IMG/VR virus record: IMGVR_UViG_3300025280_000043
Location: 1 to 51,812 of that record
Length of the DNA stretch: 51,812 nucleotides
Reading direction: 5' to 3' (one strand)
From: a virus
Shown here: positions 35,617-50,477 of the stretch, one piece after another
Numbering within the stretch: position 1 is the stretch's first letter
How the letters are laid out: each line of letters starts with the position of its first letter
The notes under the pieces: generated by a model
Told to the model about the DNA's origin: nothing
The model's database searches: none
Seen by the model: the letters and a program-made list of their open reading frames with translations, nothing else
Translations under genes and position numbers: made by a program

Positions 35617-35643
35617 ACACCTGAGCAAGTGTATAAACTGCTC
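35617..35643 (+). ncRNA. Pseudoknot-like element, copy 1
   Basis: ACAC (35617-35620) can pair with GTGT (35629-35632), and GAGCA (35623-35627) with TGCTC (35639-35643), in H-type pseudoknot order, with CT and an A-rich linker ending AAAC. It starts 8 bases after the stop of the 35265 gene. Four further copies preserve both stems with different bases. Confidence 0.65.
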
Positions 35644-35664
35644 AAAGGGATTGACAAAAAACTA

Positions 35665-35760
35665 GACTTGATAGAATTATCAACTCTCGTTCCTTCCACG
35701 TTCCTTTCCTTCCACGTTCCTTTCCTTCCACCTTCCTTTCCCTTTCCTGCTCTCTCTATA
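35665..35760 (+). repeat. Dyad plus pyrimidine tract, junction 1
   Basis: A dyad GACTTGATA-GAAT-TATCAACTC (35665-35686) is followed by an almost pure C/T tract of about 75 bases. This includes three 16-base tandem units starting CCTTCCAC (35692-35739). The operator-like dyad at 35763 closes the module. No gene lies in the 35610-35906 gap. Confidence 0.7.
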
Positions 35761-35762
35761 TA

Positions 35763-35787
35763 TTAGACATAATAATTATCAACTCCC
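35763..35787 (+). promoter_or_regulatory. Operator-like dyad, copy 1
   Basis: Exact 25-base repeat of 35129-35153, 30 bases upstream of the -35 box at 35818. Confidence 0.6.
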
Positions 35788-35817
35788 GTTTTTTTGGTTT
35801 TCACTATAGTCATAAAT

Positions 35818-35846
35818 TTGACAAGGGGGTACGACTGTGCTACAAT
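35818..35846 (+). promoter_or_regulatory. Consensus sigma-70 promoter of the 35907 gene
   Basis: TTGACA (35818-35823), 17-base spacer ending TGTGC, TACAAT (35841-35846). The leader holds a GGGAG...CTCCC hairpin (about 35855-35873) before the SD GGAG. Confidence 0.85.
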
Positions 35847-35906
35847 ATTGATGTTGGGAGAAGTACCACTCCCGACAAAATATTTAGAATAAGGAGCGTG
35901 TGAATT

Positions 35907-36107
35907 ATGGTTAACAAGGCACTCAGAGAAGCGATGTACATTGAAGATGGCTTTGTGGTTATCGTCAAGAAGATTGCGCCTCGGCCCGCGAAATCCGGCA
36001 AGTCTGTGTTGCTTGCCACAACCTCGGGAACCGAGTCATTCATTCATGAAGACAAGAACGTTCAAGTCAATTTGAACGTCTACGTTCCTCATGTAGCGAA
36101 AGGTTAA
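35907..36107 (+). CDS. Small beta-rich protein, paralogue of 36941-37171
   Basis: 66 residues. The segment SVLLATTSGTESF and the ending VQVNLNVYVP match SMLLATTRGAETF and IKANVNLYVP of the minus-strand gene at 36941-37171, so the two are paralogues in opposite orientation about 0.85 kb apart. The family function is unknown. It is a single-gene cassette with a consensus promoter, a hairpin leader and AAGGAG upstream of the ATG. Probably strongly and early expressed. Confidence 0.8.
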   Translation: MVNKALREAMYIEDGFVVIVKKIAPRPAKSGKSVLLATTSGTESFIHEDKNVQVNLNVYVPHVAKG

Positions 36108-36198
36108 GGCACAGGGGGTAGCAAGTAGCTTGGTACACTACGAAAGCTACCCCACCAAATTCAAAGCATAGGAGTTAGCATATGCCGCCCCCGATTCT

Positions 36199-36226
36199 AT
36201 GACCTGAGCAAGTCATTAAACTGCTC
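36199..36226 (+). ncRNA. Pseudoknot-like element, copy 2
   Basis: ATGAC (36199-36203) pairs with GTCAT (36212-36216), and GAGCA (36206-36210) with TGCTC (36222-36226); the linker is TAAAC. About 90 bases after the 35907 gene. The 36108-36430 gap otherwise holds a dyad (36246-36273), a pyrimidine tract (36271-36329), an operator-like dyad and a promoter. Confidence 0.65.
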
Positions 36227-36245
36227 TTTAGTTTTGCCATTTTTC

Positions 36246-36329
36246 GATTTGATAAATAGATTTGATAAGAGTCTTTCCGTTCCTTCCATTCCCTATTCCC
36301 TGTTCCTTCCTTGTGTCCCCTCTTTTTTA
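36246..36329 (+). repeat. TTGATAA elements plus pyrimidine tract, junction 2
   Basis: Two TTTGATAA copies (36248-36255 and 36261-36268) lead into GAGTC and a C/T-rich tract of about 55 bases (TTCC repeats), then the operator-like dyad at 36330. Same order as junctions 1 and 3. Confidence 0.6.
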
Positions 36330-36349
36330 GACATGGTAATTATCAAGTC
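36330..36349 (+). promoter_or_regulatory. Operator-like dyad, copy 2
   Basis: GACATGGTAATTATCAAGTC, a 20-base dyad with two mismatched pairs, 9 bases upstream of the -35 box at 36359. Confidence 0.6.
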
Positions 36350-36358
36350 CTGTTTTAT

Positions 36359-36386
36359 TTGACAATACCTCTAAATGTGGTACTAT
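36359..36386 (+). promoter_or_regulatory. Sigma-70 promoter of the 36431 gene
   Basis: TTGACA (36359-36364), 16-base spacer ending TGTGG, TACTAT (36381-36386). Confidence 0.75.
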
Positions 36387-36393
36387 AGAGAAG

Positions 36394-36409
36394 TCAAGGG
36401 AAACCTTGA
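36394..36409 (+). other. Leader hairpin with GAAA tetraloop
   Basis: TCAAGG-GAAA-CCTTGA, a perfect six-bp stem with GNRA loop at the 5' end of the predicted transcript, before the SD CGGGAGG. Confidence 0.65.
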
Positions 36410-36430
36410 ACACTCTATCGGGAGGCTCGA

Positions 36431-36700
36431 ATGATTACCTACGCCCCTACCTATGTGCCTAGTGATCGAAAGTATCGAGTCGAAGTACGGGAAATTACGT
36501 GGAATGATTCTTCTCCTAGCGTTGTATACCCTTCTGATAGGATTCGCTATAGTCACTGGGATGCGGTACGCAAAGCGGTAGAATTTATTTCGGGTTTGTC
36601 GTGTTTCTCTATTACCGCTATGCGTGAGGAATTGGGTTGGTATTGTGAATCCGATCATGGCGACTTACTTACAGTCGAAATTGTAGAAAGTGAGGTGTAG
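36431..36700 (+). CDS. Hypothetical small protein in + cassette
   Basis: 89 residues, mixed alpha/beta (YRVEVREITWNDSSPS, SHWDAVRKAVEFISGLSCFSIT, LLTVEIVESEV). Not recognised. Third single-gene cassette with its own promoter and hairpin leader; a pseudoknot-like element begins 7 bases after the stop. Last rightward gene before the convergent minus-strand genes. Confidence 0.75.
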   Translation: MITYAPTYVPSDRKYRVEVREITWNDSSPSVVYPSDRIRYSHWDAVRKAVEFISGLSCFSITAMREELGWYCESDHGDLLTVEIVESEV

Positions 36701-36706
36701 CTTTGG

Positions 36707-36733
36707 CGACCTGGGCAGGTCGAAAAACTGCCC
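36707..36733 (+). ncRNA. Pseudoknot-like element, copy 3
   Basis: CGAC (36707-36710) pairs with GTCG (36719-36722), and GGGCA (36713-36717) with TGCCC (36729-36733); linker AAAAAC. Both halves of the second stem changed together relative to the other copies (GAGCA/TGCTC), a compensatory change. Confidence 0.7.
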
Positions 36734-36753
36734 ACCGCTCACTTGACAAAAGT

Positions 36754-36885
36754 GAGTTGATAAACTTATCAAGTCTCTTTCCATTCCTGATTCCCTTCCT
36801 TCCTTTCCTGTTCCCTTCCTCTATGGGAGAGGAGGGTAGACATGATAAGAATATATCCCTCTCTATATAAAAGCTATCATGTCTA
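36754..36885 (+). repeat. Dyad, pyrimidine tract, dyad: junction 3
   Basis: GAGTTGATAA-AC-TTATCAAGTC (36754-36775), then a C/T-rich tract to about 36822, then an 11-bp perfect inverted repeat TAGACATGATA (36837-36847) / TATCATGTCTA (36875-36885). A hairpin CTCACTT-GACA-AAGTGAG (about 36738-36755) precedes it. The convergent gap 36701-36940 holds no gene. Confidence 0.65.
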
Positions 36886-36940
36886 ATTTTGGGCAAAGAA
36901 ATAGGGCAGGTGTGCCAAACCTGCCCGATTCCTAGCTAGC

Positions 36941-37171
36941 CTATTTCTTGGATTTCTTGGCCTTAGCTTCCCATTCCTCAATAGGAACATAGAGATTGAC
37001 ATTGGCCTTTATCTCCATGCCTTCATAGGTGAAGGTTTCGGCACCCCTAGTAGTAGCTAGAAGCATTGAAATCCCTTTCTTACTGAGCGTAGGCAGTATC
37101 GGAAAGCGCATTACAATTTCGCCATTCTCAACTGTATACTTATCGGCTGGGTTTTTGGGCTGATTAGCCAT
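36941..37171 (-). CDS. Small protein, paralogue of 35907-36107
   Basis: 76 residues. SMLLATTRGAETFTYEG and NVNLYVP align with the plus-strand gene at 35907, and the C-terminus is a Lys/Ala-rich tail (WEAKAKKSKK) absent from the paralogue. Its own promoter lies at 37234-37262. Just downstream a GGGCAGG...CCTGCCC inverted repeat (about 36904-36928) may end the transcript. Function unknown. Confidence 0.75.
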   Translation of the reverse strand: MANQPKNPADKYTVENGEIVMRFPILPTLSKKGISMLLATTRGAETFTYEGMEIKANVNLYVPIEEWEAKAKKSKK

Positions 37172-37233
37172 TAGTCACCATCCTGTACTATAGTGTACGG
37201 TTTCAGCGGAGCCGTCTCGCTTGGCACATGACC

Positions 37234-37262
37234 AGACTATCACCGTTCGCAACTGTTGTCAA
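37234..37262 (-). promoter_or_regulatory. Sigma-70 promoter of the 36941 gene
   Basis: TTGACA (37257-37262), 17-base spacer, TAGTCT (37234-37239), read leftward. The downstream CCAAGCGAGACG resembles the CAAGTCGA motif of the other minus promoters. Confidence 0.7.
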
Positions 37263-37560
37263 ATTTGTGCCTAACACTAGCTACTCTATAGAGAATCTAT
37301 AAAAAAAATGGGGACATGATAACTCTACTCTGCCCTACACTCTGTAGAGTACTGCAGGTATCTGCCCTGCCCTATAGTATAGGGATTGTTTTTCCTTTCC
37401 CTTTCCTATCCTTTCCGCTTCCGACCTTGTTCCTATTCGACATGATAAAAAATTATCATGTCACAAAAAACAGGAACAAACTCAGGGAGTCTGTCCTGCT
37501 CTGTGATGCTCTACAGTGTAGAGCTATGCAGTGTATTGCATTATTCTGTAGGGTATTGGC
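37263..37560. other. Gene-free stretch with pyrimidine tract and dyads
   Basis: No convincing gene. Contents: a perfect palindrome CCCTATAGTATAGGG (37370-37384), a C/T-rich tract (37389-37438), a perfect ten-bp inverted repeat GACATGATAA-AAAA-TTATCATGTC (37439-37462) related to the operator-like dyads of the + cassettes, and a CTGTAGAG-rich segment. Confidence 0.6.
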
Positions 37561-37767
37561 CTACTCTGTTATACTCTGTACCCACCTTATCAGTTCTGCA
37601 GGTAGAGGCATTGCTCTCTCCTGTACTGCTATGGTTCTTCCCTTCACATGCTCTTTCAAGACTGTCTTCCAAGTCTTTACTGCTTTTCTGTTACTCTTTC
37701 TCACAATATTTACATACTCTCCTGTCTGTGCTAGTCTAGGTCTATCAGATACTATATAGCGTTTCAT
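37561..37767 (-). CDS. Hypothetical small basic protein
   Basis: 68 residues, basic (VRKSNRKAVKTWKTVLKEHVKGR). Not recognised. It starts immediately after the stop of the 157-residue gene with GAGAGCG as SD, so the pair is co-transcribed from 38284-38312. Confidence 0.65.
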   Translation of the reverse strand: MKRYIVSDRPRLAQTGEYVNIVRKSNRKAVKTWKTVLKEHVKGRTIAVQERAMPLPAELIRWVQSITE

Positions 37768-38241
37768 TTATTCGCTCTCCTCTATACTGTCCTGTGTTGC
37801 ATTGTAGACTGTCGTAATATCTCTAATGTCTGCGTCCTCTGCAATAGAGCCTGTCTCCACTGTGGGTGGGACTAGAGTAGCATTGAAGATACTCTGCTCA
37901 TCCCATCTGTTACTGAACCACTTTTCCCCACTACAGTTCTTGCATACACCTATAGCCCATGCAGTCTCTGAAGGTATTATCCAGTAGTGCGTACAGTCTT
38001 CTGCAGGTACTACCAATCCCTCTATAGTCTCGTATACTCTCTCAGCCTGTGCTACTGCTTTGCTCTTCTTAGCAGTCTTCTTCACTGCCTTAGGCTTGCT
38101 CTGCTTTACAGGCTTAGTCTCTACACCTAATCCTATACTCGCCCAGAAGTCCGATGTAATTACGACAGCGCAACCATTCACCACTATAGTATCTGTTACT
38201 GTCTCGTAAGACTTGAGAATGTTATCCCAAAAGCTACTCAT
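37768..38241 (-). CDS. FWDNI-start protein with cysteine pair
   Basis: 157 residues. It begins MSSFWDNILKSYETV, like the plus-strand gene at 35265. A Lys/Ala-rich linker spans residues 45-70 (KPKAVKKTAKKSKAVAQ), then CTHYWIIPSETAWAIGVCKNCSGEKWF gives CxxC plus another Cys/His for a possible zinc site. The C-terminus is acidic. Function unknown. SD AGAAGGAG. Confidence 0.7.
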   Translation of the reverse strand: MSSFWDNILKSYETVTDTIVVNGCAVVITSDFWASIGLGVETKPVKQSKPKAVKKTAKKSKAVAQAERVYETIEGLVVPAEDCTHYWIIPSETAWAIGVCKNCSGEKWFSNRWDEQSIFNATLVPPTVETGSIAEDADIRDITTVYNATQDSIEESE

Positions 38242-38283
38242 GTTGTACTCCTTCTATGCTTGGCGTTTTCTCGACTTGCCAAA

Positions 38284-38312
38284 AGTATAACATCGTTAAA
38301 ACCAAATAGCAA
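38284..38312 (-). promoter_or_regulatory. Family promoter for 38241/37767 genes
   Basis: Leftward TTGCTA (38307-38312), 17 bases, TATACT (38284-38289), followed by TTTGGCAAGTCGAGAAAACG, the conserved start of transcripts in this region. The adjacent 38313-38436 is low-complexity and gene-free. Confidence 0.8.
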
Positions 38313-38436
38313 ATTTCCTAGAGCATTTACAGACTGTCTTACTCTGTGTGTGATAGTTATATACTATACTCTTTTATCTTTGTAAATCTCTAGTAGCTAT
38401 TTCTACTGTACTGTTATACTCTGTTCTGTTCTGCTA

Positions 38437-38598
38437 TTACTCTTTCCTGTCTTGATTATAATATAACTTCTTCCTTCTGATTTCCTGTTCATCTATATAC
38501 TTTAGGTCTTTCCTAATGTACTTCCTTGCTTCCTTTATAGTCTCTAAGTCATAGAACTTTTGATACTCTATTATGAATGCTTTCAGTTCAGATATCAT
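38437..38598 (-). CDS. Small helical protein, 53 residues
   Basis: 53 residues starting MISELKAFIIEYQKF, highly helical and basic (IKEARKYIRKDLKYIDEQEIRRKK). The ATG overlaps the TGA of the 50-residue gene (ATGA), the typical coupling overlap. Function unknown. Confidence 0.6.
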   Translation of the reverse strand: MISELKAFIIEYQKFYDLETIKEARKYIRKDLKYIDEQEIRRKKLYYNQDRKE

Positions 38599-38747
38599 TC
38601 TTTTCTCCACCCCTTCAGTAGGGCATGAATAAGTTTCGCTTCCTTGCTTCCTATAGTCTTATCTCTATCAATCGCTTTCTGTACTGACTTTGCATTGTAC
38701 TTGGCTGTAGCAATTCCACCTGTAGAGTCATTGTATATGTTTACCAT
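38595..38747 (-). CDS. Small protein, 50 residues
   Basis: MVNIYNDSTGGIATAKYNAK..., then a Lys-rich helix ending LIHALLKGWRKE. The ATG overlaps the previous TAA (TAATG) behind AAGGGGGGG. Part of a three-gene micro-operon. Confidence 0.6.
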   Translation of the reverse strand: MVNIYNDSTGGIATAKYNAKSVQKAIDRDKTIGSKEAKLIHALLKGWRKE

Positions 38748-38833
38748 TACCCCCCCTTCTGACTAGGACAGTCTTGCTTATGGAATTGGATTCTGAAATA
38801 GAAGGAGTAGGCCATCCCACATGAGTTACACAT
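38747..38833 (-). CDS. 28-residue zinc-finger micropeptide
   Basis: MCNSCGMAYSFYFRIQFHKQDC...: CxxC, then HxxxxC, enough ligands for a single zinc finger. SD AAGGAG lies 8 bases upstream and the promoter 38875-38904 just before it. First gene of a micro-operon with overlapping stop/start codons, which supports real translation. Confidence 0.6.
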   Translation of the reverse strand: MCNSCGMAYSFYFRIQFHKQDCPSQKGG

Positions 38834-38874
38834 ATCAGTATCTCCTTGGTGATTCGTTTTTCCTCACTTCAAAT

Positions 38875-38904
38875 AGTATAACACGAAAACAAAACTTGTG
38901 TCAA
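38875..38904 (-). promoter_or_regulatory. Family promoter for the 38833 micro-operon
   Basis: Leftward TTGACA (38899-38904), 18 bases, TATACT (38875-38880); begins GGGATTTGACA directly after the stop of the preceding gene. Confidence 0.85.
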
Positions 38905-38910
38905 ATCCCT

Positions 38911-39096
38911 CTATACTTGTAGGACTCTATCCAATGCTTTGAACACTCTTACACTAGGTACTGTAAAATACCGACTAGAGTATCGCTCTGCTGTCCAAAG
39001 CATTCTGTCATACCTACTGACTTTGAATGCTCTACTCATATGCCAATACTCTAGCAGTTCCCCCTCATCAATATCACTACCATTCACATACAGCAT
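38911..39096 (-). CDS. Hypothetical small protein
   Basis: 61 residues, rich in Tyr and Arg (KVSRYDRMLWTAERYSSRYFTVPS). Not recognised. SD GAAGGAG; own promoter at 39128-39157; the stop is followed within 7 bases by the next promoter. Confidence 0.7.
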   Translation of the reverse strand: MLYVNGSDIDEGELLEYWHMSRAFKVSRYDRMLWTAERYSSRYFTVPSVRVFKALDRVLQV

Positions 39097-39127
39097 AACA
39101 ACTCCTTCGTTTTTTCACTTCCTCAAA

Positions 39128-39157
39128 AGTATAACATGAAAACGAAACTATTGTCAA
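39128..39157 (-). promoter_or_regulatory. Family promoter for the 39096 gene
   Basis: Leftward TTGACA (39152-39157), 18 bases ending CATGT, TATACT (39128-39133), then GAGGAAGTGAAAAAACG. Confidence 0.85.
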
Positions 39158-39167
39158 ATCCCCTGCA

Positions 39168-39494
39168 CTAAACAGGAACTAATACTTTTGCACCATTTGA
39201 ATCATCAAAGTAACGATTGTACAGTAGTGTAGTGTACTGTCCTAAATCATCATTATCGTCTACTCCATATTCCTCAGCAGTATGAACCCATCTTTGAACA
39301 TACTCTATAGAATAGTTAGGGTTAGTGTTGTACCTTGCCAAGTAGTGCATTACTGTTGCTACTGCATTGGCAGGTCTTTCATCTGTTCCCTCTACTACAT
39401 ACTTGCTTCCAAACTTAAACTTCCAGTAGTTAGCACCTTCCGCTTCCCCATAGTTCTCCATGTATTGTGTATATACGGATATGCTCATTTTCAT
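39168..39494 (-). CDS. Hypothetical protein
   Basis: 108 residues, beta/alpha (MSISVYTQYMENYGEAEGANYWKFKFG; VATVMHYLARYNTNP). The YTQYMENYGE start resembles short phage proteins of unknown role. Own promoter at 39520-39548, SD AAGTGAGG. Confidence 0.7.
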   Translation of the reverse strand: MKMSISVYTQYMENYGEAEGANYWKFKFGSKYVVEGTDERPANAVATVMHYLARYNTNPNYSIEYVQRWVHTAEEYGVDDNDDLGQYTTLLYNRYFDDSNGAKVLVPV

Positions 39495-39519
39495 ACCTCA
39501 CTTGTTTCGACTTAGCTAA

Positions 39520-39548
39520 AGCATAACACAAAACAAATCGCTTGGCAA
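39520..39548 (-). promoter_or_regulatory. Family promoter for the 39494 gene
   Basis: Leftward TTGCCA (39543-39548), 17 bases, TATGCT (39520-39525), then TTAGCTAAGTCGAAAC. Confidence 0.8.
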
Positions 39549-39555
39549 ATCCCTA

Positions 39556-39765
39556 CTACAGATACCATGAAAGATTCTTTTCTGTAATCTCTGATTCTGC
39601 TGTACTCTCCTCACTATCATAGTAAACATCAATCGTATAAGCAAAATCACCAGTAGTAGTTACATTTACCTGTTCCCGTAAAGCATTTAGTATTGCAAAT
39701 TCTACATCTTCTCTCTCATCATGAGAGAACAGTTCCTGTAATCCTTGATACTGTACTCTTGCCAT
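39556..39765 (-). CDS. Hypothetical small acidic protein
   Basis: 69 residues, acidic (SHDEREDVEFAILNALREQ, DSEESTAESEITEK). Starts 3 bases after the stop of the 73-residue gene. No motif recognised. Confidence 0.65.
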   Translation of the reverse strand: MARVQYQGLQELFSHDEREDVEFAILNALREQVNVTTTGDFAYTIDVYYDSEESTAESEITEKNLSWYL

Positions 39766-39768
39766 TAG

Positions 39769-39990
39769 TTACTCTCCTCCGTAGATAGGTCTATCAAAGT
39801 CTATAATTACTTCATTACACTTCACACACTCAACAGCTACAGTTTCACCATTGCCATAATTAGCAATCTCTATTGCACTACTCTGAATAGTTGACTCTAA
39901 TTCTATAGTACATTCAGAATGTGTCAGCAGTTTGTTATACATAACGTATACATAACTAGGTCGATTATACATACTTTCTTTAGTACTCAT
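39769..39990 (-). CDS. Hypothetical small protein with CxxC
   Basis: 73 residues from the ATG at 39990, chosen because GGGAGG lies 4 bases away and it makes an ATGA overlap with the 204-residue gene. CVKCNE near the C-terminus is a lone cysteine pair. Function unknown. Confidence 0.65.
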   Translation of the reverse strand: MSTKESMYNRPSYVYVMYNKLLTHSECTIELESTIQSSAIEIANYGNGETVAVECVKCNEVIIDFDRPIYGGE

Positions 39991-40601
39991 TGTTCCTCCC
40001 ATGCTCTCACTTTAGTATAGCCTTTATTTTTCCTATGCTGTACCCATGTCACTGCTTGTACTACATTGTAGTGTACACCAAGTTTCTTGCTTGCTAGTTT
40101 ATAGGAAGTCTGCATCCTTCTCATTACTTTAGGACTACTAAAGGCTCTGCTTTTGTCACGCTTAGAAACAGGCTTCCCATAATATATAGTCTGAGCATGG
40201 CTGTCTACTACAGGTAGATAGTTTCCATAAGGCTCTACTATTGCATGGTAGAAAGGAACAACTTTGTTTCCACCCAATACAGTGTCAGGGTCTTCCCCTT
40301 CACTAATCCTCTTAGCCTTTGCATTGTTTGCACTGGTCTGCTTTGTACTGTAGCCTAGTGAAGTAAACTTCAATGCTTCAGCTACATTATCTCCCCAATC
40401 TGTCTGAGGCGATAAGGCTGCTAAGATACCTGCACCTACTCGTATATCTTCAGTGCCTAGCAGTTTACTTACTTGCATTGCTATGTTATTAGCATCCGTG
40501 TACCAGTATTGCCCTTCAACTAAACTATCCGCTGAAGCCCTGTTATAAGCCTCTACTATATTCTGGTAAGAACCCTTGACTACATTCTCTGCTTTAGCCA
40601 T
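39987..40601 (-). CDS. Conserved phage protein with VxSPQxxW-type motif
   Basis: 204 residues. The pattern LAALSPQTDWGDNVAEALKF, then DPDTVLGGNKVVPFYHAIVEP and PVVDSHAQTIYYG, matches a widespread family of small phage proteins that I remember only as uncharacterised. The helical SPQxxW core and the VDSHA segment recall helix-hairpin-helix DNA glycosylases, but the catalytic Lys/Asp cannot be assigned by eye. It lies in an operon from promoter 40846-40874. Confidence 0.6.
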   Translation of the reverse strand: MAKAENVVKGSYQNIVEAYNRASADSLVEGQYWYTDANNIAMQVSKLLGTEDIRVGAGILAALSPQTDWGDNVAEALKFTSLGYSTKQTSANNAKAKRISEGEDPDTVLGGNKVVPFYHAIVEPYGNYLPVVDSHAQTIYYGKPVSKRDKSRAFSSPKVMRRMQTSYKLASKKLGVHYNVVQAVTWVQHRKNKGYTKVRAWEEQ

Positions 40602-40809
40602 TAGATATACCTACCTTTGCTAATCCAACATGGCAACTAGTTGTTTGAGATGTGAACCCCAACCCTCTACTAGTATAATCATATACTTCCCTACCCTGTC
40701 CAATCAACAGAGCATAGGAATAAAGATTATAACCATCAGTAGATAAGTGCCTAGCTTTGGTGACTCTCCCAGAGAGCCATGCTTGGATAACGTCGCTGTT
40801 CGATACCAT
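40594..40809 (-). CDS. Hypothetical small protein
   Basis: 71 residues (MVSNSDVIQAWLSGRVTKARHLSTDGYNLYSYALLIG). A short helix SDVIQAWL, then beta. Overlaps the 204-residue gene by 8 bases and is likely its partner in expression. Function unknown. Confidence 0.7.
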   Translation of the reverse strand: MVSNSDVIQAWLSGRVTKARHLSTDGYNLYSYALLIGQGREVYDYTSRGLGFTSQTTSCHVGLAKVGISNG

Positions 40810-40845
40810 AGTACACTCCTTTGCTTCGTTTTCCGACTTGCTTAA

Positions 40846-40874
40846 AGTTTACCACGGCGACAAGTTGGTGTCAA
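40846..40874 (-). promoter_or_regulatory. Family promoter for the 40809 operon
   Basis: Leftward TTGACA (40869-40874), 17 bases, TAAACT (40846-40851), then TTAAGCAAGTCGGAAAACG. Preceded by TAGGGAT. Confidence 0.85.
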
Positions 40875-40900
40875 ATCCCTAGTGCAGTTATACTGTCATC

Positions 40901-44301: not shown

Positions 44302-44313
44302 ATCCCCACTGCT

Positions 44314-44621: not shown

Positions 44622-44649
44622 GAGCAGTTTTCTGTCATGCTCAGGACAG
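44622..44649 (-). ncRNA. Pseudoknot-like element, copy 4
   Basis: Leftward: CTGTC (44649-44645) pairs with GACAG, and GAGCA with TGCTC (ending at 44622); linker AAAAC. Stem 1 is the mirror choice of bases compared with copies 2 and 5, yet stays complementary. It lies between an AGTATAATAG box (44669-44678) and the 44589 gene. Confidence 0.65.
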
Positions 44650-44668
44650 CACCCTCACCTTGCTCTTT

Positions 44669-44678
44669 CTATTATACT
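44669..44678 (-). promoter_or_regulatory. AGTATAATAG box upstream of pseudoknot copy 4
   Basis: Overlaps the stop of the DUF932 gene by two bases. The same box followed by a pseudoknot occurs at 50497-50506, so the box, pseudoknot and gene form a repeated arrangement. Confidence 0.4.
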
Positions 44679-45735
44679 AACTATTAGTTACTAATTGTCT
44701 AGCAGTTGAAAAAGCCCTAGCCTTAGCATCTGCCCTAGAGCCAAACAATGCGGTAGCAGAATTAGCGTGGCCCTTCCTATAGTCTTCTGTTTCTACAATC
44801 GCTTGCCATATAGCCCAAGGAGTACGAGCAAGATTACTAAACTCATCGTTGAAAGCAGTATAACGTTCCCTTGCTCCATTACGAATCAATTCTATTCTCT
44901 CTACTCGTTTCTCATATTCTTCTTGCAATTCTTTCTTGTCACCAAGAAGTTTCATCCACACACCAGTAGGGACATCATCAGCAGTGATATCCTTTGAAAG
45001 AGATAATCGTCTGGGCTGAGAAGCGTCAGGATATGCAGACTTCAAAACTCTCTCCACATCTGTGTCCTCTATAGTAGTTGTATTAAGAGTGTTCATAACA
45101 GCAATAGCTTCATCCTTTGCTGAACTCATTTGATTAAACAATCCTATGTACCACTCTGTATCCGATTCAATTCTCCTAGTATGGGTAAGCCTTACTGAAA
45201 TCTTAGCATTTGCCAACCCCGCCGTAAGTGTATTCTGACACACAACTCGTACAGGAGTAAAAGCAATTTGCAATGCACCCATACCATCACGATGGTCAGT
45301 AACGAGGAAGTATAGTTTATGGTCTTCACCACAAATCTTACTATCCCCTGCATCTAAGGTCATGAAGATTTTCTCTCCATAACCTATTGCACCTATGGTT
45401 TCCACAGGATACTTTTCTGTTACAGGGTCTAACATCCTACCCAAATCCACAGCTTGAATAGGAGTCCACTCTTTTCCTACTATAGACAATACTCTATATT
45501 CATCGTCGTCTTTTACAGGTTCTCGCACAACTGCAAAATTATTAGTAGGTACAAGGTCTATAGTCTCTCCTTTATCTATCTGAACTACTACAGGATGTTT
45601 TGCAATATGAAAATCAATACCTGCTTTACGAATAGCCTGACTCATAGACATAGGCTCTTCAAATACTTGTCCAATCCTATGCCATGCAGGTGTGCGCCTT
45701 CCTAGAAATCTATCACCAAAAATCGATGCTGACAT
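44677..45735 (-). CDS. DUF932 (phage/plasmid-like, TIGR03299-type) protein
   Basis: 352 residues. The N-terminus RRTPAWHRIGQVFEEPMSMSQAI, the middle LYFLVTDHRDGMGALQIAFTPVRVVCQNTLTAGLANA and the C-terminal helical part (WAIWQAIVETEDYRKG) are the signature of this family, which is common on phages and plasmids and of unsettled function (sometimes linked to recombination or anti-restriction). It is the largest gene of the 36.9-51.3 kb region. SD AAGGAGC. Confidence 0.88.
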   Translation of the reverse strand: MSASIFGDRFLGRRTPAWHRIGQVFEEPMSMSQAIRKAGIDFHIAKHPVVVQIDKGETIDLVPTNNFAVVREPVKDDDEYRVLSIVGKEWTPIQAVDLGRMLDPVTEKYPVETIGAIGYGEKIFMTLDAGDSKICGEDHKLYFLVTDHRDGMGALQIAFTPVRVVCQNTLTAGLANAKISVRLTHTRRIESDTEWYIGLFNQMSSAKDEAIAVMNTLNTTTIEDTDVERVLKSAYPDASQPRRLSLSKDITADDVPTGVWMKLLGDKKELQEEYEKRVERIELIRNGARERYTAFNDEFSNLARTPWAIWQAIVETEDYRKGHANSATALFGSRADAKARAFSTARQLVTNS

Positions 45736-45753
45736 TATATTAGCTCCTTTATA

Positions 45754-45975
45754 CTAAATTATATTATTTGAGTCGTCTTCTATACTCTCTGCTTCATATA
45801 GATTTGTTTCTATTCTATAGAGAAGTTCTATATCCTCTTGGAGAGCTTCTAGTGTGCTTACGGCTCTATCTCTTACATCCTCTGCCGTAGCCATTATATC
45901 TTCAACCTTTAGCTGTACGTCCTCTAAGTTGCTTACACTATCCTGTATGCTTTTTACTATTTCTTGTATACCCAC
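45754..45975 (-). CDS. Small coiled-coil protein with GTG start
   Basis: 73 residues, acidic coiled coil over nearly the whole length (VKSIQDSVSNLEDVQLKVEDI, VSTLEALQEDIELLYRIETNL). The start is GTG with AAAGGAG seven bases upstream. Function unknown; probable oligomer. Confidence 0.65.
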   Translation of the reverse strand: MGIQEIVKSIQDSVSNLEDVQLKVEDIMATAEDVRDRAVSTLEALQEDIELLYRIETNLYEAESIEDDSNNII

Positions 45976-46027
45976 GATTTACTCCTTTATGTACTAAACA
46001 TACTTTGATATTGAACATCCTCGATAA

Positions 46028-46045
46028 TTACATATCTACACCTCC
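46028..46045 (-). promoter_or_regulatory. Second SD-ATG-TAA start-stop element
   Basis: GCGGAGGTGTAGAT-ATG-TAA in the leader of the 45975 gene, matching the 44227 element in SD, spacing and following TTAT. The real start follows about 50 bases later. Confidence 0.5.
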
Positions 46046-46078
46046 GCAAAAGCGAATCGGTTTTTTCAACGCAACCTT

Positions 46079-46108
46079 AGTTTAACACAAGCGTAAAACT
46101 TTTGTCAA
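46079..46108 (-). promoter_or_regulatory. Family promoter for the 45975 gene
   Basis: Leftward TTGACA (46103-46108), 18 bases ending TTGTGT, TAAACT (46079-46084), preceded by TAGGGAT. Confidence 0.85.
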
Positions 46109-46112
46109 ATCC

Positions 46113-46355
46113 CTAGAGCAGGGAATCCCATAATCGTAGATTATATGAGAAATAACCAAAGGCTTCACCATTTCTATAGAGTACAGGATTTGTCCAATTG
46201 CCGCCACCAACCATCCAGAAACTTTGCCACTTAGAAATCTTATCACGGACTTCATCTATTGTAATTCCCCAAAAATCTTCAGGGTCTGTGATAGGCGTAT
46301 ACTGTTGTTTATCTACATTCCCTACTGTTTTAACTGTTGTTGTGTAAACGTCCAT
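46113..46355 (-). CDS. Hypothetical small protein
   Basis: 80 residues from the ATG at 46355 (MDVYTTTVKTVGNV), preferred because GGAGGGAAGG lies just upstream; an ATG 15 bases earlier lacks an SD. The C-terminus WTNPVLYRNGEAFGYFSYNLRLWDS is beta-rich. Function unknown. Confidence 0.65.
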   Translation of the reverse strand: MDVYTTTVKTVGNVDKQQYTPITDPEDFWGITIDEVRDKISKWQSFWMVGGGNWTNPVLYRNGEAFGYFSYNLRLWDSLL

Positions 46356-46373
46356 TATCCTTCCCTCCATTCT

Positions 46374-46628
46374 CTATAACTTATCTCTAACTTCTTCACT
46401 AATTTTTCGTATACGAATATTCTCATCTCTGATACATTCTGTATCTTTCCGAATAATAATAGTTTCTGCTAAGATACCTTTCGTATCGTTCCTAATAGTA
46501 ATAGTTTCCTGTAGAATAGATTTAGTTAAACCTACTAATCTAAAGGAAAGATAGGCAATATAGATATTAAGTATACCCACAATTCCCATACCTATAACCG
46601 ATAGAATTATAAAATATCCCATTGTCAT
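46374..46628 (-). CDS. Single-span membrane protein with coiled tail
   Basis: 84 residues. Residues 4-32 are hydrophobic (YFIILSVIGMGIVGILNIYIAYLSF, in part), followed by a repeating stretch of the form ETITIRNDTKGIL / ETIIIRKDTECIRDE / NIRIRKISEEV, three degenerate heptad-like repeats. Probably membrane-anchored with a cytoplasmic coiled coil, spanin-like or sensor-like in look, but unassigned. Confidence 0.65.
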   Translation of the reverse strand: MTMGYFIILSVIGMGIVGILNIYIAYLSFRLVGLTKSILQETITIRNDTKGILAETIIIRKDTECIRDENIRIRKISEEVRDKL

Positions 46629-46954
46629 TAGTCTCTAGCCTCATAATCATAATCATCTAAATCTGGTTCTTCTACATAATTTTTCCACACTCTGTTCTTA
46701 GGGATTGAAGCTATTCTATTCTGTCTATATGTTTCCAAAACAGTATCCCATATTTCCTGTTCAGTTACAGTACGCCCAATTTTCTTTTCTAATCGTTTCC
46801 AAACTTTCAGAAGTTTCTTTTCCTTTCTCCTAGTTTCAAGCATATTAAATTCTCCATCACAAGCAAGATTTTCCGGCGATAATTTATTACACAACTCTTC
46901 AAACTGTGCTAGATATTTTGATTCGATAATCAACTTGTTCTTTACTGCAATCAT
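46628..46954 (-). CDS. Hypothetical basic helical protein
   Basis: 108 residues from the ATG at 46954 (MIAVKNKLIIES), chosen because AAGGAG lies 10 bases upstream inside the Mom-like gene; the longer frame has no SD. Basic helices (ETRRKEKKLLKVWKRLEKKIG), then an acidic tail (EEPDLDDYDYEARD). It overlaps the Mom-like gene by 56 bases and may be coupled to it. Confidence 0.6.
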   Translation of the reverse strand: MIAVKNKLIIESKYLAQFEELCNKLSPENLACDGEFNMLETRRKEKKLLKVWKRLEKKIGRTVTEQEIWDTVLETYRQNRIASIPKNRVWKNYVEEPDLDDYDYEARD

Positions 46955-47564
46955 AATACGTATACTCCTTATTATCTTTTTTAGGATAGACTTTTGGAAG
47001 CCACTTCGTTTGAAGAGTCTTGTCAAAAACTAATAAATATCTATGTTTTCTTGGTCGGTGTCTCCATTCTCCTTTACTACCTTTTACCTTGCCTCTAGTA
47101 TGTTTAAGAAAAGTGCCATCCTCTTGTTCAAACCACCAATCGCTTTTAGGGTCTGTGAGTCCATAATACATAAAGTTTAAAGATTGATATATATACCCTG
47201 CGTGGTAGCGAGAATCTGCATAGCTAAGAATAGCTCTAACGTCCAGTTCCTTACGTACCTCTTTCATAGCCATTGCTACAAATTGAGACAGTATTAAACT
47301 GCCGTTGGCAGACGGATGTTTTACTAATCGCCCAAGTTCAAGTATACCACGTTGATCGGTTCGTGTCAAACCGAAGCACCCCTTCACCAACTCAGGAACA
47401 GAAGGATTATGAAATATACAGACAGCCTGTAAAACATCATCAATGAATGCACCATAATTATAGCCTGTCCTAAAACCTTTGCTTTCCTTTGTCAAATAAT
47501 GATAGGGATGAAGTAATGATTCTGCTTCCTTCTTTGTTATCTTTCTAACTATAGGCTTACACAT
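46899..47564 (-). CDS. Mom-like GNAT-fold DNA modification protein (putative)
   Basis: 221 residues. HPYHYLTKESKGFRTGYNYGAFID, LQAVCIFHNPSVPE, ILELGRLVKH, SQFVAMAMKEVR, AILSYADSRYHAGYIYQSLNF follow the order of motifs in the Mu Mom family, an acetyltransferase fold that converts adenine to a carbamoylmethyl derivative and protects phage DNA from restriction. The C-terminal 70 residues are basic. No separate hydroxylase or Com-like activator is obvious, although zinc-finger micropeptides are nearby. The family is recognised by pattern memory; the exact chemistry is not shown. Confidence 0.6.
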   Translation of the reverse strand: MCKPIVRKITKKEAESLLHPYHYLTKESKGFRTGYNYGAFIDDVLQAVCIFHNPSVPELVKGCFGLTRTDQRGILELGRLVKHPSANGSLILSQFVAMAMKEVRKELDVRAILSYADSRYHAGYIYQSLNFMYYGLTDPKSDWWFEQEDGTFLKHTRGKVKGSKGEWRHRPRKHRYLLVFDKTLQTKWLPKVYPKKDNKEYTYYDCSKEQVDYRIKISSTV

Positions 47565-47778
47565 TAGTGTTATCCCATACAGTGTAATTCATCATTAAGT
47601 CTTCTGAAAGTTCTGGCTCTTGGATATCAATCAGACTTACTGAATTGTCAGACATGAGTCCTTTACACAGTATGGTTTGAAGTATGCCCTCTTTGTCATA
47701 TCCATAACTCACTGGCTCAAGCCACTCGAACCCTAGTACCGTATCCTCTTTTCTTCTTGGGTCTAAAACAAGTCTCAT
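47557..47778 (-). CDS. Hypothetical small acidic protein
   Basis: 73 residues from the ATG at 47778 (MRLVLDPRRKEDTVLGFEW). GAGGAG lies 6 bases upstream, while the longer frame from 47811 would overlap the previous gene without an SD. It overlaps the Mom-like start by 8 bases. Function unknown. Confidence 0.65.
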   Translation of the reverse strand: MRLVLDPRRKEDTVLGFEWLEPVSYGYDKEGILQTILCKGLMSDNSVSLIDIQEPELSEDLMMNYTVWDNTNV

Positions 47779-47779
47779 C

Positions 47780-47977
47780 TTACTCTCCTCTTTTATAGGT
47801 TTCAACCTCATATAAGGTACTCACCGTATCTCCATGAGGATCATATTGCATAGGGCCTTCATAGTCTCCTATATGCTCTCGTACAATTTCTTCGGCTTCT
47901 GTAACACTATCTGCTTCTATTTTAGCAATACCAGAAACATGATATCTCTTGCTCCAATATACTTTATAGTTTGGCAT
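47780..47977 (-). CDS. Hypothetical small protein
   Basis: 65 residues (YKVYWSKRYHVSGIAKIEADSVTEAEEIVREHIGDYEG), a beta-beta-alpha start like many small phage domains of the form YxVxWxxxxxVxGxxxIEAxSxxEAE. Function unknown. Overlaps the upstream gene by 14 bases. Confidence 0.65.
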   Translation of the reverse strand: MPNYKVYWSKRYHVSGIAKIEADSVTEAEEIVREHIGDYEGPMQYDPHGDTVSTLYEVETYKRGE

Positions 47978-48164
47978 TTAAGTAGCTCTCTAGTTGATTA
48001 TAAACATTTTGTTTGCTTCCCGTAAAACCTAGTTCAGATTTAATAATTGCATAACAGCTACGTCCTTTATTAGTCATTCGTATACCTTTTAACTCTAACT
48101 TTAAACCACTAAGCAATGTATGTAATCTAAATAAAGGAATTAGGTCACCAGTTATAATTGTCAT
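47964..48164 (-). CDS. Hypothetical small protein
   Basis: 66 residues from the ATG at 48164 (MTIITGDLIPLFRLHTLLSGLKLELKGIRM), preferred over 48212 because AAGGAG lies 9 bases upstream. GRSCYAIIKSELGFTGSKQNVYNQLESYL looks like a compact helical domain. Function unknown. Confidence 0.65.
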   Translation of the reverse strand: MTIITGDLIPLFRLHTLLSGLKLELKGIRMTNKGRSCYAIIKSELGFTGSKQNVYNQLESYLNAKL

Positions 48165-48177
48165 CGTTATACTCTCC

Positions 48178-48462
48178 TTAGCGCAAATATAGAGGAGACT
48201 GAATTCCCCCAACTTTGCACCAACTATTAACTTTCTCTTTACTTCCCCAACATCCAGTTGGAGCTTCCCAGTAAATCCATTTCACAATTTCCTGTAAACG
48301 TGGAAGGTTCTTACTATCTGCTCTGGCAAAAGCTCCCACTAAATCATTTTCAAGACAGGCCATAAGAAAGCCACCTGCCTCAATACCCCTTTCAACATAT
48401 TGTTGCATACTGCCCTGCAAACCTTCAGGTAGTAGAGAATAATGGTAAATATCTATACTCAT
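48178..48462 (-). CDS. Hypothetical small protein
   Basis: 94 residues (QQYVERGIEAGGFLMACLENDLVGAFARAD) with an AGGFL...NDLVGA pattern seen in small phage proteins of unknown function. It lies 26 bases downstream of the tRNA gene and may be expressed from the same transcript. Confidence 0.65.
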   Translation of the reverse strand: MSIDIYHYSLLPEGLQGSMQQYVERGIEAGGFLMACLENDLVGAFARADSKNLPRLQEIVKWIYWEAPTGCWGSKEKVNSWCKVGGIQSPLYLR

Positions 48463-48488
48463 ATCTATGTCCCCCTTATACTTCTTTT

Positions 48489-48572
48489 TGGTGCCTCTGG
48501 AAGGAATCGAACCTTCACGCCTTTTGGCACTTGGGCTTAAACCAAGCGTGTCTACCGTTCCACCACAGAGGC
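48489..48572 (-). tRNA. tRNA-Leu(UAA)
   Basis: 84 bases with CCA encoded. Acceptor GCCTCTG pairs with CAGAGGC (7 bp), discriminator A. Anticodon stem CTTGG/CCAAG with loop TTTAAGC, anticodon TAA reading UUA. Long variable arm TGCC-AAAA-GGCG and T arm GAAGG-TTCGATT-CCTTC. UUA is a common codon in this AT-rich genome, so the tRNA probably supports late translation. Confidence 0.95.
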
Positions 48573-48583
48573 TTTAAAAAATA

Positions 48584-48608
48584 GGGGGGGGATTTTTATA
48601 TCCCCCCC
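48584..48608 (-). terminator. Intrinsic terminator between 48641 gene and tRNA
   Basis: A GGGGGGGAT/ATCCCCCCC-type stem with an A/T loop. On the minus strand it is followed by CTATTTTTT, as expected for a leftward terminator. Confidence 0.75.
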
Positions 48609-48640
48609 ATATATATATACCTACGAATGATGTGTATTAT

Positions 48641-49150
48641 TTACTTATTTACATCTATAGTGATATCAATTTCATCCGAAATTACCGTATCAAAATTAAC
48701 TTGAACATCTTTAAGTAGGTAATCTATCTGCACATCTCTACTCTCTTGTTCAAGCTCATCAGCATACAGTAATGCACAAACTTTACGTTTTAAATTATAG
48801 CCTACAGGTTCATCTCCAATTTTAATAAACGATGATGCTACCTCCCTAATCATAAAGAGTTCTGTAATATCTATCTCAAACGTATACTCTTTACCTTGAT
48901 TTTCCTGTTTTGTAGTATAGACCACAGCTTTACCAATCTTGTCCATTAAGTCCAATGGTACGGCTAGTCCTGCAGTCATTTGTACAGGTCGCATAGAAAA
49001 TACTCGCTGTTCATCTCCTTCTCGTTCAACCATTAAAGTCAGACTATCATCTAAAAACAATGCTTCATTTCTAGATAAACTGAACGATAATTCTTTTTCC
49101 AGTTCTTCATAATCATGTTCCTCTAAGGGAGTATTATTTTCTTCTACCAT
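48641..49150 (-). CDS. Hypothetical protein
   Basis: 169 residues from the ATG at 49150 (MVEENNTPLEEHDYEEL), which follows AAGGAGGAG; the upstream ATG at 49165 overlaps the previous stop and has a weaker site. Acidic; the middle LDLMDKIGKAVVYTTKQ and EYTFEIDITELFMIREVASSFIKI looks like a small alpha/beta domain. Function unknown. Confidence 0.7.
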   Translation of the reverse strand: MVEENNTPLEEHDYEELEKELSFSLSRNEALFLDDSLTLMVEREGDEQRVFSMRPVQMTAGLAVPLDLMDKIGKAVVYTTKQENQGKEYTFEIDITELFMIREVASSFIKIGDEPVGYNLKRKVCALLYADELEQESRDVQIDYLLKDVQVNFDTVISDEIDITIDVNK

Positions 49151-49164
49151 ATACTCCTCCTTCA

Positions 49165-49296
49165 TTACCTTTTATAAAAGGTCTCCTGTATTTGATTACA
49201 GCGGGAACATCTAATAATATCTTTAAGTATATATACTTCTAATACATTATTTGAATGACCCCTTCGTCTACATATAAATTTCTTTAACATACGCAT
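49165..49296 (-). CDS. 43-residue protein with cysteine pair
   Basis: MRMLKKFICRRRGHSNN...RCSRCNQIQETFYKR. C9, H14 and the CSRC pair could bind one zinc. The stop overlaps the next start (TAATG). Function unknown; small basic zinc-ribbon proteins recur in this region. Confidence 0.55.
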   Translation of the reverse strand: MRMLKKFICRRRGHSNNVLEVYILKDIIRCSRCNQIQETFYKR

Positions 49297-49298
49297 TA

Positions 49299-49478
49299 TT
49301 AAGTTACTTCCTCAGCTTCGTAGTCTTCAAGCCTTCGCAACTTCTTTTTTAGTTTAGACCACTCACGAGATTGTTTAGAATCTTTTTGAAGGGTTTTACG
49401 AAACGGCTTACTTAAGTTTTTCAGATACCGTTTAGATGTTGTTTTTCTCTCTCGACTTGACCAATTATGATTATCCAT
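49299..49478 (-). CDS. 59-residue very basic protein
   Basis: MDNHNWSSRERKTTSKRYLKN..., Lys/Arg-rich with an acidic end (DYEAEEVT). It overlaps the preceding gene by 8 bases and ends 3 bases before the next start. Probably nucleic-acid binding by charge; no motif. Confidence 0.6.
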   Translation of the reverse strand: MDNHNWSSRERKTTSKRYLKNLSKPFRKTLQKDSKQSREWSKLKKKLRRLEDYEAEEVT

Positions 49479-49644
49479 AATTCTTTTCTTTTAGTCGAAA
49501 CTCTAGTAAATCAATCTTATCTTGAATGTCTATCAATTTTTGCATTACCTCCTGATGTGTTTCATGCATGAGTCTTTCAGTACTGTCTAATCTTATATTA
49601 AACTCCTGTGTATGAATCAACATCTGTTCTGTTACGCCACTCAT
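49471..49644 (-). CDS. 57-residue coiled-coil protein
   Basis: MSGVTEQMLIHTQEFNIRLD..., nearly all helix with heptads (VMQKLIDIQDKIDLLEFRL). SD AAGGAG; a TATAAT-type box (49656-49664) immediately upstream. Function unknown. Confidence 0.6.
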   Translation of the reverse strand: MSGVTEQMLIHTQEFNIRLDSTERLMHETHQEVMQKLIDIQDKIDLLEFRLKEKNYG

Positions 49645-49756
49645 TTCTCTCTCCTTATTATACTATTTAAAACTGACCTACTTTATTTTTTTCGTTTTGA
49701 AACCTTCCCTGTAACTAGTTTCCACATTGGTATACTTCAGGTTCTTTTCTCTATAA

Positions 49757-49981
49757 CTACCTCTTTCTCCAGTTTAACCAATCTTTATTTGCCACAGGCT
49801 TCCCATCATTTAATACACTTTTTATCAATAATCCATTTTTAATGGCTATCTCCAAACCTATTATATGGATCATATCATTTAGGATATCAGCAATGTGACT
49901 AACATCAAAGTCAGCACCTAGTGTATAAATCTGTCCTGTATCTGAATCCCATACTGTTAAGCTCCATATATCTATAGTCAT
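49757..49981 (-). CDS. Hypothetical small protein
   Basis: 74 residues (MTIDIWSLTVWDSDTGQIYTLGADFDVSHIADILNDMIHIIG): beta then helix. It abuts the upstream gene's stop (TAATG overlap). The following 49645-49756 is gene-poor. Function unknown. Confidence 0.65.
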   Translation of the reverse strand: MTIDIWSLTVWDSDTGQIYTLGADFDVSHIADILNDMIHIIGLEIAIKNGLLIKSVLNDGKPVANKDWLNWRKR

Positions 49982-50223
49982 TAAAATAACTTTAATTGAA
50001 CAGGTTCTTTCTCAACTACAGCTTCCCATTTCTTCCATGGCATATCGTTATACTTTAAGAGAGGTTGGCTAGAAAAATCTATATTAGACATTACATCATA
50101 AAGTTCTTCTACAGTTTCTCTAAGTAACTTATTCTCTACTCTTAGTTCACCATTTAACTTTCTATGTTCTTCATTTGTTTGCAACAATAAATCCATGTCT
50201 GTCCATTGCATTTCATGATCCAT
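49981..50223 (-). CDS. Small coiled-coil protein
   Basis: 80 residues from the ATG at 50223 (MDHEMQWTDMDLLLQ), chosen for AAGGAGG upstream. Residues 18-45 form a coiled coil (LRVENKLLRETVEELYDVM). Function unknown. Confidence 0.65.
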   Translation of the reverse strand: MDHEMQWTDMDLLLQTNEEHRKLNGELRVENKLLRETVEELYDVMSNIDFSSQPLLKYNDMPWKKWEAVVEKEPVQLKLF

Positions 50224-50237
50224 GCGTATTGTCCTCC

Positions 50238-50423
50238 TTATTGATAGTCTGATGCAAGACAATCCCAACATAGGGTTACTGCATCATTCAGATTAGTGCC
50301 ATTACATTCTGGACAGTGAGGTAGCTCATATTCATATTCGTCCCCAAACTTTTCGGACAACCACCTATCAACTTTAGTTGCCTCCAAAGCCTCTTCTAGA
50401 GAAACGATTTCAAAGATTGGCAT
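50238..50423 (-). CDS. Small zinc-ribbon protein
   Basis: 61 residues. The acidic helix SLEEALEATKVDRWLSEKFG is followed by CPECNGTNLNDAVTLCWDC, a Cys4 zinc ribbon. The leader contains a pseudoknot-like element 28 bases upstream of the ATG; SD AAGGATG. Confidence 0.7.
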   Translation of the reverse strand: MPIFEIVSLEEALEATKVDRWLSEKFGDEYEYELPHCPECNGTNLNDAVTLCWDCLASDYQ

Positions 50424-50450
50424 TATTCACATCCTTACATAATAAAAATT

Positions 50451-50477
50451 GAGCAGTTTAAAGACATGCTCAGGTCT
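50451..50477 (-). ncRNA. Pseudoknot-like element, copy 5
   Basis: Leftward: AGAC (50477-50474) pairs with GTCT, and GAGCA with TGCTC (ending 50451); linker TTAAAC. A T-rich stretch follows. It lies between an AGTATAATAG box (50497-50506) and the zinc-ribbon gene. Confidence 0.65.

Follow-up and report, generated by a model that had tools for sequence, protein, structure and literature searches.

What does a pseudoknot of only 27 bases do in a virus that carries it five times, with other letters in its stems from copy to copy and the pairing kept? The question is raised by the IMG/VR virus record IMGVR_UViG_3300025280_000043, whose whole stretch of 51,812 nucleotides (nt) we call the window, and for which a preliminary description, made from the letters alone, had proposed an H-type RNA pseudoknot with compensatory base changes that matched no family its author recognised. 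Direct checking of the sequence revealed all five copies to be as described in coordinates, strands, stems and loops, and they are listed here with their scores against model R1, a covariance model of 103 training sequences that come mostly from other genomes and include copy 3 of the window.

Positions 35617 to 35643, + strand: pseudoknot copy 1, stem 1 ACAC/GTGT, loop 1 CT, stem 2 GAGCA/TGCTC, loop 3 ATAAAC; 40.2 bits.
Positions 36199 to 36226, + strand: pseudoknot copy 2, stem 1 ATGAC/GTCAT, stem 2 GAGCA/TGCTC, loop 3 TAAAC; 39.6 bits.
Positions 36707 to 36733, + strand: pseudoknot copy 3, stem 1 CGAC/GTCG, stem 2 GGGCA/TGCCC (compensated), loop 3 AAAAAC; 35.7 bits.
Positions 44622 to 44649, - strand: pseudoknot copy 4, stem 1 CTGTC/GACAG, stem 2 GAGCA/TGCTC, loop 3 AAAAC; 37 bits.
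Positions 50451 to 50477, - strand: pseudoknot copy 5, stem 1 AGAC/GTCT, stem 2 GAGCA/TGCTC, loop 3 TTAAAC; 41.7 bits.

Run over the whole record, model R1 returned these same five copies and no sixth, and a control scan with the pattern read in reverse gave no match. An exhaustive scan for small perfect pseudoknots found other, chance ones in the 52 kilobases, none of them with the CT...AAAC loops. Nested folding programs, which are unable to display a pseudoknot, predicted the stem 2 hairpin for most copies and a stem 1 structure for copy 4, and in copy 1 stem 2 can be extended by an extra T-A pair using A35644.

To evaluate the structure beyond the window, we drew on hundreds of fetched viral and bacterial loci, chosen by search pattern among the matches listed rather than at random, and several of them related. 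These loci share the consensus NNNNC-CU-RRNYA-W-GNNNN-NN-AAAC-URNYY, a unit of 27–30 nt in which a stem 1 of about 4 base pairs and a stem 2 of 5–6 base pairs are joined by the fixed loops CU, W and NNAAAC. Stem 1 lay outside the search patterns applied to viral contigs, and it formed at least 4 consecutive pairs in 393 of 542 unique sites, compared to a mean of 45 and a maximum of 63 with shuffled partners. With stem 1 and the loops as the anchor, a perfect stem 2 was present at 452 of 475 sites, in 16 different stem 2 sequences, a variety partly selected by the search patterns, and loop-swapped controls gave 0–3 perfect stems (6 for the loop GAAC, a variant searched on purpose). Twenty copies with a variant stem 2 had been met incidentally before any variant search, versus about one in each of several controls. 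Alignment of 103 sequences showed 93.8% of cells paired, double changes in 9 of 10 pairs and a covariation score of 0.70 (0.24 when shuffled, at most 0.16 when slid), and in most copies a sixth stem 2 pair can join the U of loop 1 to the A that follows the second strand of stem 2. With its segments in the order stem 1, loop 1, stem 2, loop 2, stem 1', loop 3, stem 2' and with both helices covarying, the element almost certainly folds as an H-type pseudoknot, and the covariation bears out what five copies had suggested.

Homologues with covariation proved to be very many. Phage carriers infect Staphylococcus, Lactobacillus, Bacillus, Mycobacterium, Arthrobacter, Synechococcus and roseobacters, with crAss-like phages in addition, and by name they include Roseobacter phage SIO1, Celeribacter phage P12053L, Staphylococcus phage B166, Lactobacillus prophage Lj771, Bacillus phage Page, Anoxybacillus phage A403, Mycobacterium phage Labelle, Arthrobacter phage Amigo, Synechococcus phage S-EIV1 and crAss-like phage cr7_1. 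Scanning IMG/VR with CTGAGCA-N4-8-AAACTGCTC returned at least 120 loci, and the gap length was 7 in 125 of 139 matches though the pattern admitted five gap lengths, over which chance would spread the matches evenly. The compensated stem 2 variants GGGTA/TACCC, GGACA/TGTCC and AAGCA/TGCTT gave at least 120 loci each, and the GAAC loop variant matched 86 loci, about 6 of which retain both stems. A phage usually carries one copy, not a tandem array, with S-EIV1 carrying six confident ones. GTDB genomes held at least 116 loci, spread over many phyla. Few bacterial chromosomes carry the element, though: among 80 genomes of one phylum and 96 of another, seed genomes counted, the exact GAGCA form was present in 1 and 2, and a single 34-nt query of E. 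coli genomes gave no match. In agreement with the preliminary description, an Rfam 15 scan of the window at gathering thresholds returned transfer RNA (tRNA) only and left the pseudoknot copies unmatched, as did a scan of copies 1–3 at E ≤ 5, and we found no description of the family in open-access literature text, which does not prove that none exists. The family is real, widespread and without an Rfam entry, and apparently undescribed so far; family-based annotation probably misses it because it is short and pseudoknotted.

Gene calls outside annotated phages are simple open reading frames (ORFs), and with such calls stem 1 starts most often 4–9 nt (mode 5–6 nt) past the stop of a frame of at least 80 codons, and 40.8% of copies lie 0–15 nt past such a stop versus 2.1% of random positions. 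Distances to the next start codon are broad and much looser, and convergent contexts number 81 against 33 divergent ones, several of the latter being short-ORF cases missed by the caller. Annotated phages mostly agree: the pseudoknot lies about 10 nt past ribonucleotide reductase in SIO1, about 9 nt past a head morphogenesis gene and before scaffold/capsid genes in B166, and about 5–7 nt past a coding sequence and then followed by a tRNA in Labelle and Amigo, and 5 of the 6 confident S-EIV1 copies are 3–9 nt past annotated stops, with Lj771 deviating (annotated stop about 170 nt away). DUF932 (PHROG 1221) is the family upstream of window copy 4, and it also stands upstream at 17 of the 109 viral loci sampled.

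In bacteria, among them Aminicenantes and other metagenome-assembled genomes, a standalone gene of 18–23 codons (PRxAHCxEGC; for example MKRFTVPRIAHCAEGCRHSS and MRWMFPHATHCSACGSMR, each ended by its stop codon) terminates inside or just before the pseudoknot. The gene has its own Shine-Dalgarno sequence and, in several loci, a sigma70-like promoter; NCBIfam gives no match for it and Pfam none above cut-off, and the genes downstream of it are inconsistent and often convergent. A link to ribonucleotide reductase, suggested at first by SIO1, P12053L and a few of the bacterial loci, was dropped, as the bacterial cases are this separate 20-codon gene.

Small-gene loci, first part: L126, L139, L144, L147, L155, L164, L171, L205, L207.
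Small-gene loci, second part: L212, L213, L220, L223, L227, L230, L235, L237, L239.

Taken together, the tight spacing to the upstream stop, the convergent excess and the standalone small genes make the pseudoknot an element of the upstream RNA, and with high confidence we place the family in the 3' untranslated region of the upstream gene, where a 3'-end stabiliser would lie.

What, then, follows on the 3' side? Thirty-seven tRNAs of 11 isotypes begin 3–14 nt downstream of a pseudoknot (mode 4), and the same survey found no antisense tRNA within 150 nt. Hammerhead-like cores lie downstream in 7 cases (at +24 or +25 in four of them) and never upstream or antisense, Rfam confirming one, in locus L135; the core itself, CUGANGA ... 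GAAA with three stems, is absent from the pseudoknot element. Hammerhead core rules place the predicted cleavage at about 6–7 nt past the pseudoknot in L135 (twice), L189 and L196. In crAss-like phage cr7_1 the pseudoknot sits within the intervening segment of a permuted transfer-messenger RNA (tmRNA; Rfam RF04321) and stops 4 nt short of the 5' end of the messenger RNA (mRNA) piece, which we infer to be an RNase P-type site; this two-piece tmRNA (L731:1660-1895, NC_055895.1 about 20659-20894) is annotated as an ordinary one. DUF2800 RNA (RF02960) starts a few nt past the pseudoknot at L148:5432-5592 (+), L160:2824-2981 (-) and L215:1691-1849 (-), and it may hold a cleavage site just inside its 5' part; the L148 copy opens with ACCGTC, like the hammerhead of L135. 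The position of copies before tRNAs, hammerheads and the one permuted tmRNA points to a putative mature RNA 3' end nearby.

The sequence just behind the pseudoknot is poor in G (first G at a median of 9 nt versus 3), and a U-run of at least 5 occurs within 14 nt in 13.4% of copies versus about 2% elsewhere. An intrinsic terminator has a U-run directly behind its helix, and on this ground the family does not belong to that class. A conserved downstream hairpin showed no general excess, only scattered terminators being present, and a tRNA-like ACCA end was ruled out as a general feature, ACCA following the pseudoknot in 30 of 573 copies. Immediately after the pseudoknot, two gut Firmicutes (L163 and L183) share an RNA-like sequence, GTGATCG...CCGAGTGCACA, which has no Rfam match at the gathering threshold.

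As the best single mechanism, with about an even chance of being right, we propose from sequence context an exonuclease-blocking 3' cap: the pseudoknot would make up the region at the 3' end of mRNAs and precursor RNAs and be reused after many unrelated genes. Cleavage or termination would leave the upstream RNA ending in the compact pseudoknot and a short G-poor tail, of about 3–8 nt in most cases with a putative cleavage site, and such a tail would be too short for RNase II, RNase R or PNPase to load on or to pull through two stacked helices, the block in turn stabilising the upstream mRNA. RNase R requires an overhang of about 7 nt (PMC12320835) and E. coli RNase II stalls 5–7 nt before a duplex (PMC3293843), so a short-tailed pseudoknot should stop both. 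Its place just after genes and before RNA cut sites makes protection of fresh mRNA tail ends probable, and the cap is supported by standalone 20-codon mRNAs that have the pseudoknot at their end and no consistent gene behind it. Among the three guesses of the preliminary description, a nuclease-blocking 3' end thus fits the context best and a small-ligand aptamer least, with a protein-binding RNA weighed below. In the window, copies 1–3 would cap single-gene cassettes that have no visible intrinsic terminator, and copies 4 and 5 would cap the genes upstream of them, one being DUF932. We hold only tentatively, at somewhat under even chances, the broader proposal of a cap shared by DNA phages and some bacteria for ends made by RNase P, ribozymes and termination alike.

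Several points weigh against a cap. Most copies have no tRNA, known ribozyme or U-run directly downstream, and at several small genes (L171, L164, L223) an ordinary terminator stands 30–40 nt beyond the pseudoknot, a setting with no obvious need for a second 3' barrier. A promoter-like box lies between stop and pseudoknot at window copies 4 and 5. RNase R is able to unwind structure once it has loaded, the fixed loop letters appear more conserved than a purely mechanical roadblock needs, and the fold, the 3' ends and the effect on stability are themselves predictions from sequence.

The genes, boxes and candidate promoters around the window copies are the following.

Positions 35214 to 35609, + strand: ORF of 131 amino acids, stop 7 nt before copy 1, no Pfam match.
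Positions 35818 to 35846, + strand: promoter-like TTGACA-17-TACAAT after copy 1 at the start of the next cassette, a consensus match only.
Positions 35907 to 36107, + strand: ORF of 66 amino acids upstream of copy 2, stop 91 nt away.
Positions 36182 to 36202, + strand: candidate ORF of 6 codons (MPPPIL and stop) with Shine-Dalgarno GGAG, its putative stop overlapping stem 1 of copy 2.
Positions 36359 to 36386, + strand: promoter-like TTGACA-16-TACTAT after copy 2 at the start of the next cassette, a consensus match only.
Positions 36431 to 36700, + strand: ORF of 89 amino acids, stop 6 nt before copy 3.
Positions 44669 to 44678, - strand: AGTATAATAG box overlapping the stop codon before copy 4, a possible phage promoter.
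Positions 44677 to 45735, - strand: DUF932 / PHROG 1221 gene, stop 27 nt before copy 4.
Positions 50497 to 50506, - strand: AGTATAATAG box overlapping the stop codon before copy 5, a possible phage promoter.
Positions 50500 to 50838, - strand: ORF of 112 amino acids, stop 22 nt before copy 5.

The preliminary description had put copies 1–3 behind the stops of single-gene cassettes; copies 1 and 3 start 7 and 6 nt past a stop, and copy 2 starts 91 nt past that of the 66-amino-acid ORF, with the stop of the candidate mini-ORF inside its stem 1. Copies 4 and 5, placed there in leaders of small genes, both lie behind stops, and the family as a whole tracks the upstream stop; the box reported before them is present and possibly a promoter, and it overlaps the stop codons. 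The PPP run of the mini-ORF could cause ribosome stalling. A terminator scan of the window found no + strand intrinsic terminator right behind copies 1–3, and copy 3 is followed by an opposing gene.

The record holds the shorter TAGTATAATA 7 times, counting both strands, at 16071, 24444, 31752, 44679, 49665 and 50507 (-) and at 51341 (+), and because most occurrences are close to gene starts it may well be a phage-specific promoter. Such a box was rejected as a general partner of the pseudoknot, TATAAT showing no enrichment upstream in other genomes. Operator-like GACATRRTAA repeats lie between the cassettes at 35132, 35766, 36330, 36839, 37313 and 37439 (+), some with an inverted half (for example GACATGATAAAAAATTATCATGTC at 37439), and these are likely repressor sites. 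CTTCC-rich pyrimidine tracts follow each cassette on the + strand (35690-35750, 36275-36320, 36785-36820), and DNA-level comparison of the cassettes with named phages gave no match.

Which other functions could account for these observations? The strongest rival, though unlikely, is that a specific phage or host protein binds the pseudoknot as a regulatory or tagging site of the upstream mRNA, much as T4 gp32 binds its pseudoknot and then the adjoining unstructured RNA. The loops (CU, W, AAAC) stay nearly invariant while the stems drift, as recognition would predict, and binding is also favoured by the G-poor tail, by a copy right beside the single-stranded DNA-binding protein (SSB) gene in S-EIV1 and Amigo, and by the over-representation of DUF932 genes upstream. 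However, triples required in an H-type pseudoknot explain invariant loops equally well, loop conservation is partly built into the search patterns, and the carriers are unrelated phages and bacteria with no common gene or protein known.

Action at the level of transcription, through termination, pausing or a block to Rho just after translation ends, is improbable: the location just behind stop codons and the excess of U-runs speak for it, but 87% of copies have no U-run, the runs are not enriched in convergent copies (20 of 150, versus 57 of 423 in others), a normal terminator follows some copies, and transcription must pass into the tRNAs, hammerheads and downstream genes. Quite improbable, too, is an insulator or cleavage helper, that is, either an aid to RNase P or a folded spacer that prevents the upstream mRNA from pairing wrongly with the tRNA, tmRNA or ribozyme; the exact spacing (3–8 nt to most RNase P sites, about 6–7 nt to hammerhead sites) would suit it, but about 90% of copies have no adjacent tRNA or ribozyme.

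We consider a 5' leader element of the downstream gene, whether riboswitch or translational operator, very improbable even though window copies 4 and 5 have a promoter-like box before them and the next gene behind, and other copies precede scaffold/capsid genes in Staphylococcus, Lactobacillus and Bacillus phages. The pseudoknot keeps a tight distance to the stop before it and a loose one to the start after it, the 81 convergent sites have no same-strand downstream gene, the downstream genes are diverse, and many copies face tRNAs or nothing, so that neither the link to a downstream gene nor the expression platform of a riboswitch is found. That the RNA is a decoy or serves counter-defence, for instance by mimicking the pseudoknot of a type III antitoxin, is harder still to credit; it is mainly phages that carry the family, and phages are known to mimic the ToxI antitoxin (PMC3475682). 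However, bacterial genomes also carry single copies, behind the conserved 20-codon gene, and phages usually carry one non-tandem copy tied to a stop codon. Stimulation of stop-codon readthrough or frameshifting is almost certainly wrong: the 4–9 nt spacing past the stop resembles the classical recoding geometry of an H-type pseudoknot 5–9 nt downstream, but tRNAs or ribozymes follow directly, the 0 frame stays open for more than 30 codons past the stop in 17% versus 20% of controls, and the other frames are shorter than in controls.

Why would a 3' cap matter? Phage transcripts that have been cut need to withstand exonucleases, and knowledge of how processed mRNA ends are stabilised is poor beyond a few model phages. 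If the cap is real, a minimal covarying pseudoknot would be a common and easily tested solution across Gram-positive, cyanobacterial and roseobacter phages and crAss-like viruses; it could serve as a portable stabiliser for synthetic mRNAs in bacteria, its position could mark RNA processing or cleavage sites that have so far gone unidentified, and DUF2800 RNA would be predicted to be cut just inside its 5' part. Even if the mechanism is wrong, a new RNA family had been overlooked by family-based annotation.

Known systems each resemble the family in part. Type III antitoxin RNAs (ToxI and relatives) are also short pseudoknot RNAs, but theirs stand in tandem beside a toxin gene, whereas here single copies are scattered, and no Pfam toxin match was found among the five upstream genes in the window, the neighbours searched for toxins. 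The autoregulatory pseudoknot of T4 gene 32 is small, H-type and short in loop 1, like the family here, and lies in the 5' leader of one gene; our element lies behind many unrelated genes, and in Amigo it comes after, not before, the SSB gene, so it does not occupy the leader of an SSB gene. STAXI motifs are small pseudoknots in two or three tandem repeats (Weinberg et al. 2010, PMC2864571). They too occur near phage and DNA-metabolism genes, but our copies are not tandem and have no Rfam match, which sets them apart from STAXI. Bacterial terminator hairpins and REP (repetitive extragenic palindromic) hairpins share with the pseudoknot a structure at or near mRNA 3' ends, REP RNAs being targets of RNase R plus PNPase (PMC12320835); the difference is a pseudoknot with fixed loops and usually no U-run. 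For hammerhead ribozymes that flank prophage genes, the proposed role is to divide long phage transcripts into mRNAs the size of single genes (PMC3088659). In L135, L189 and L196 such a ribozyme comes right after the pseudoknot, but the pseudoknot is itself without a ribozyme core and mostly has no hammerhead nearby. Finally, the 3' pseudoknots of plant RNA viruses (the tobamovirus upstream pseudoknot domain, the tymovirus tRNA-like structure), which are thought to stabilise the RNA 3' end, are likewise H-type and stand right after the last stop codon; theirs are tandem or built into a tRNA-like end, whereas here a single 27-nt unit is carried by DNA phages and bacteria.

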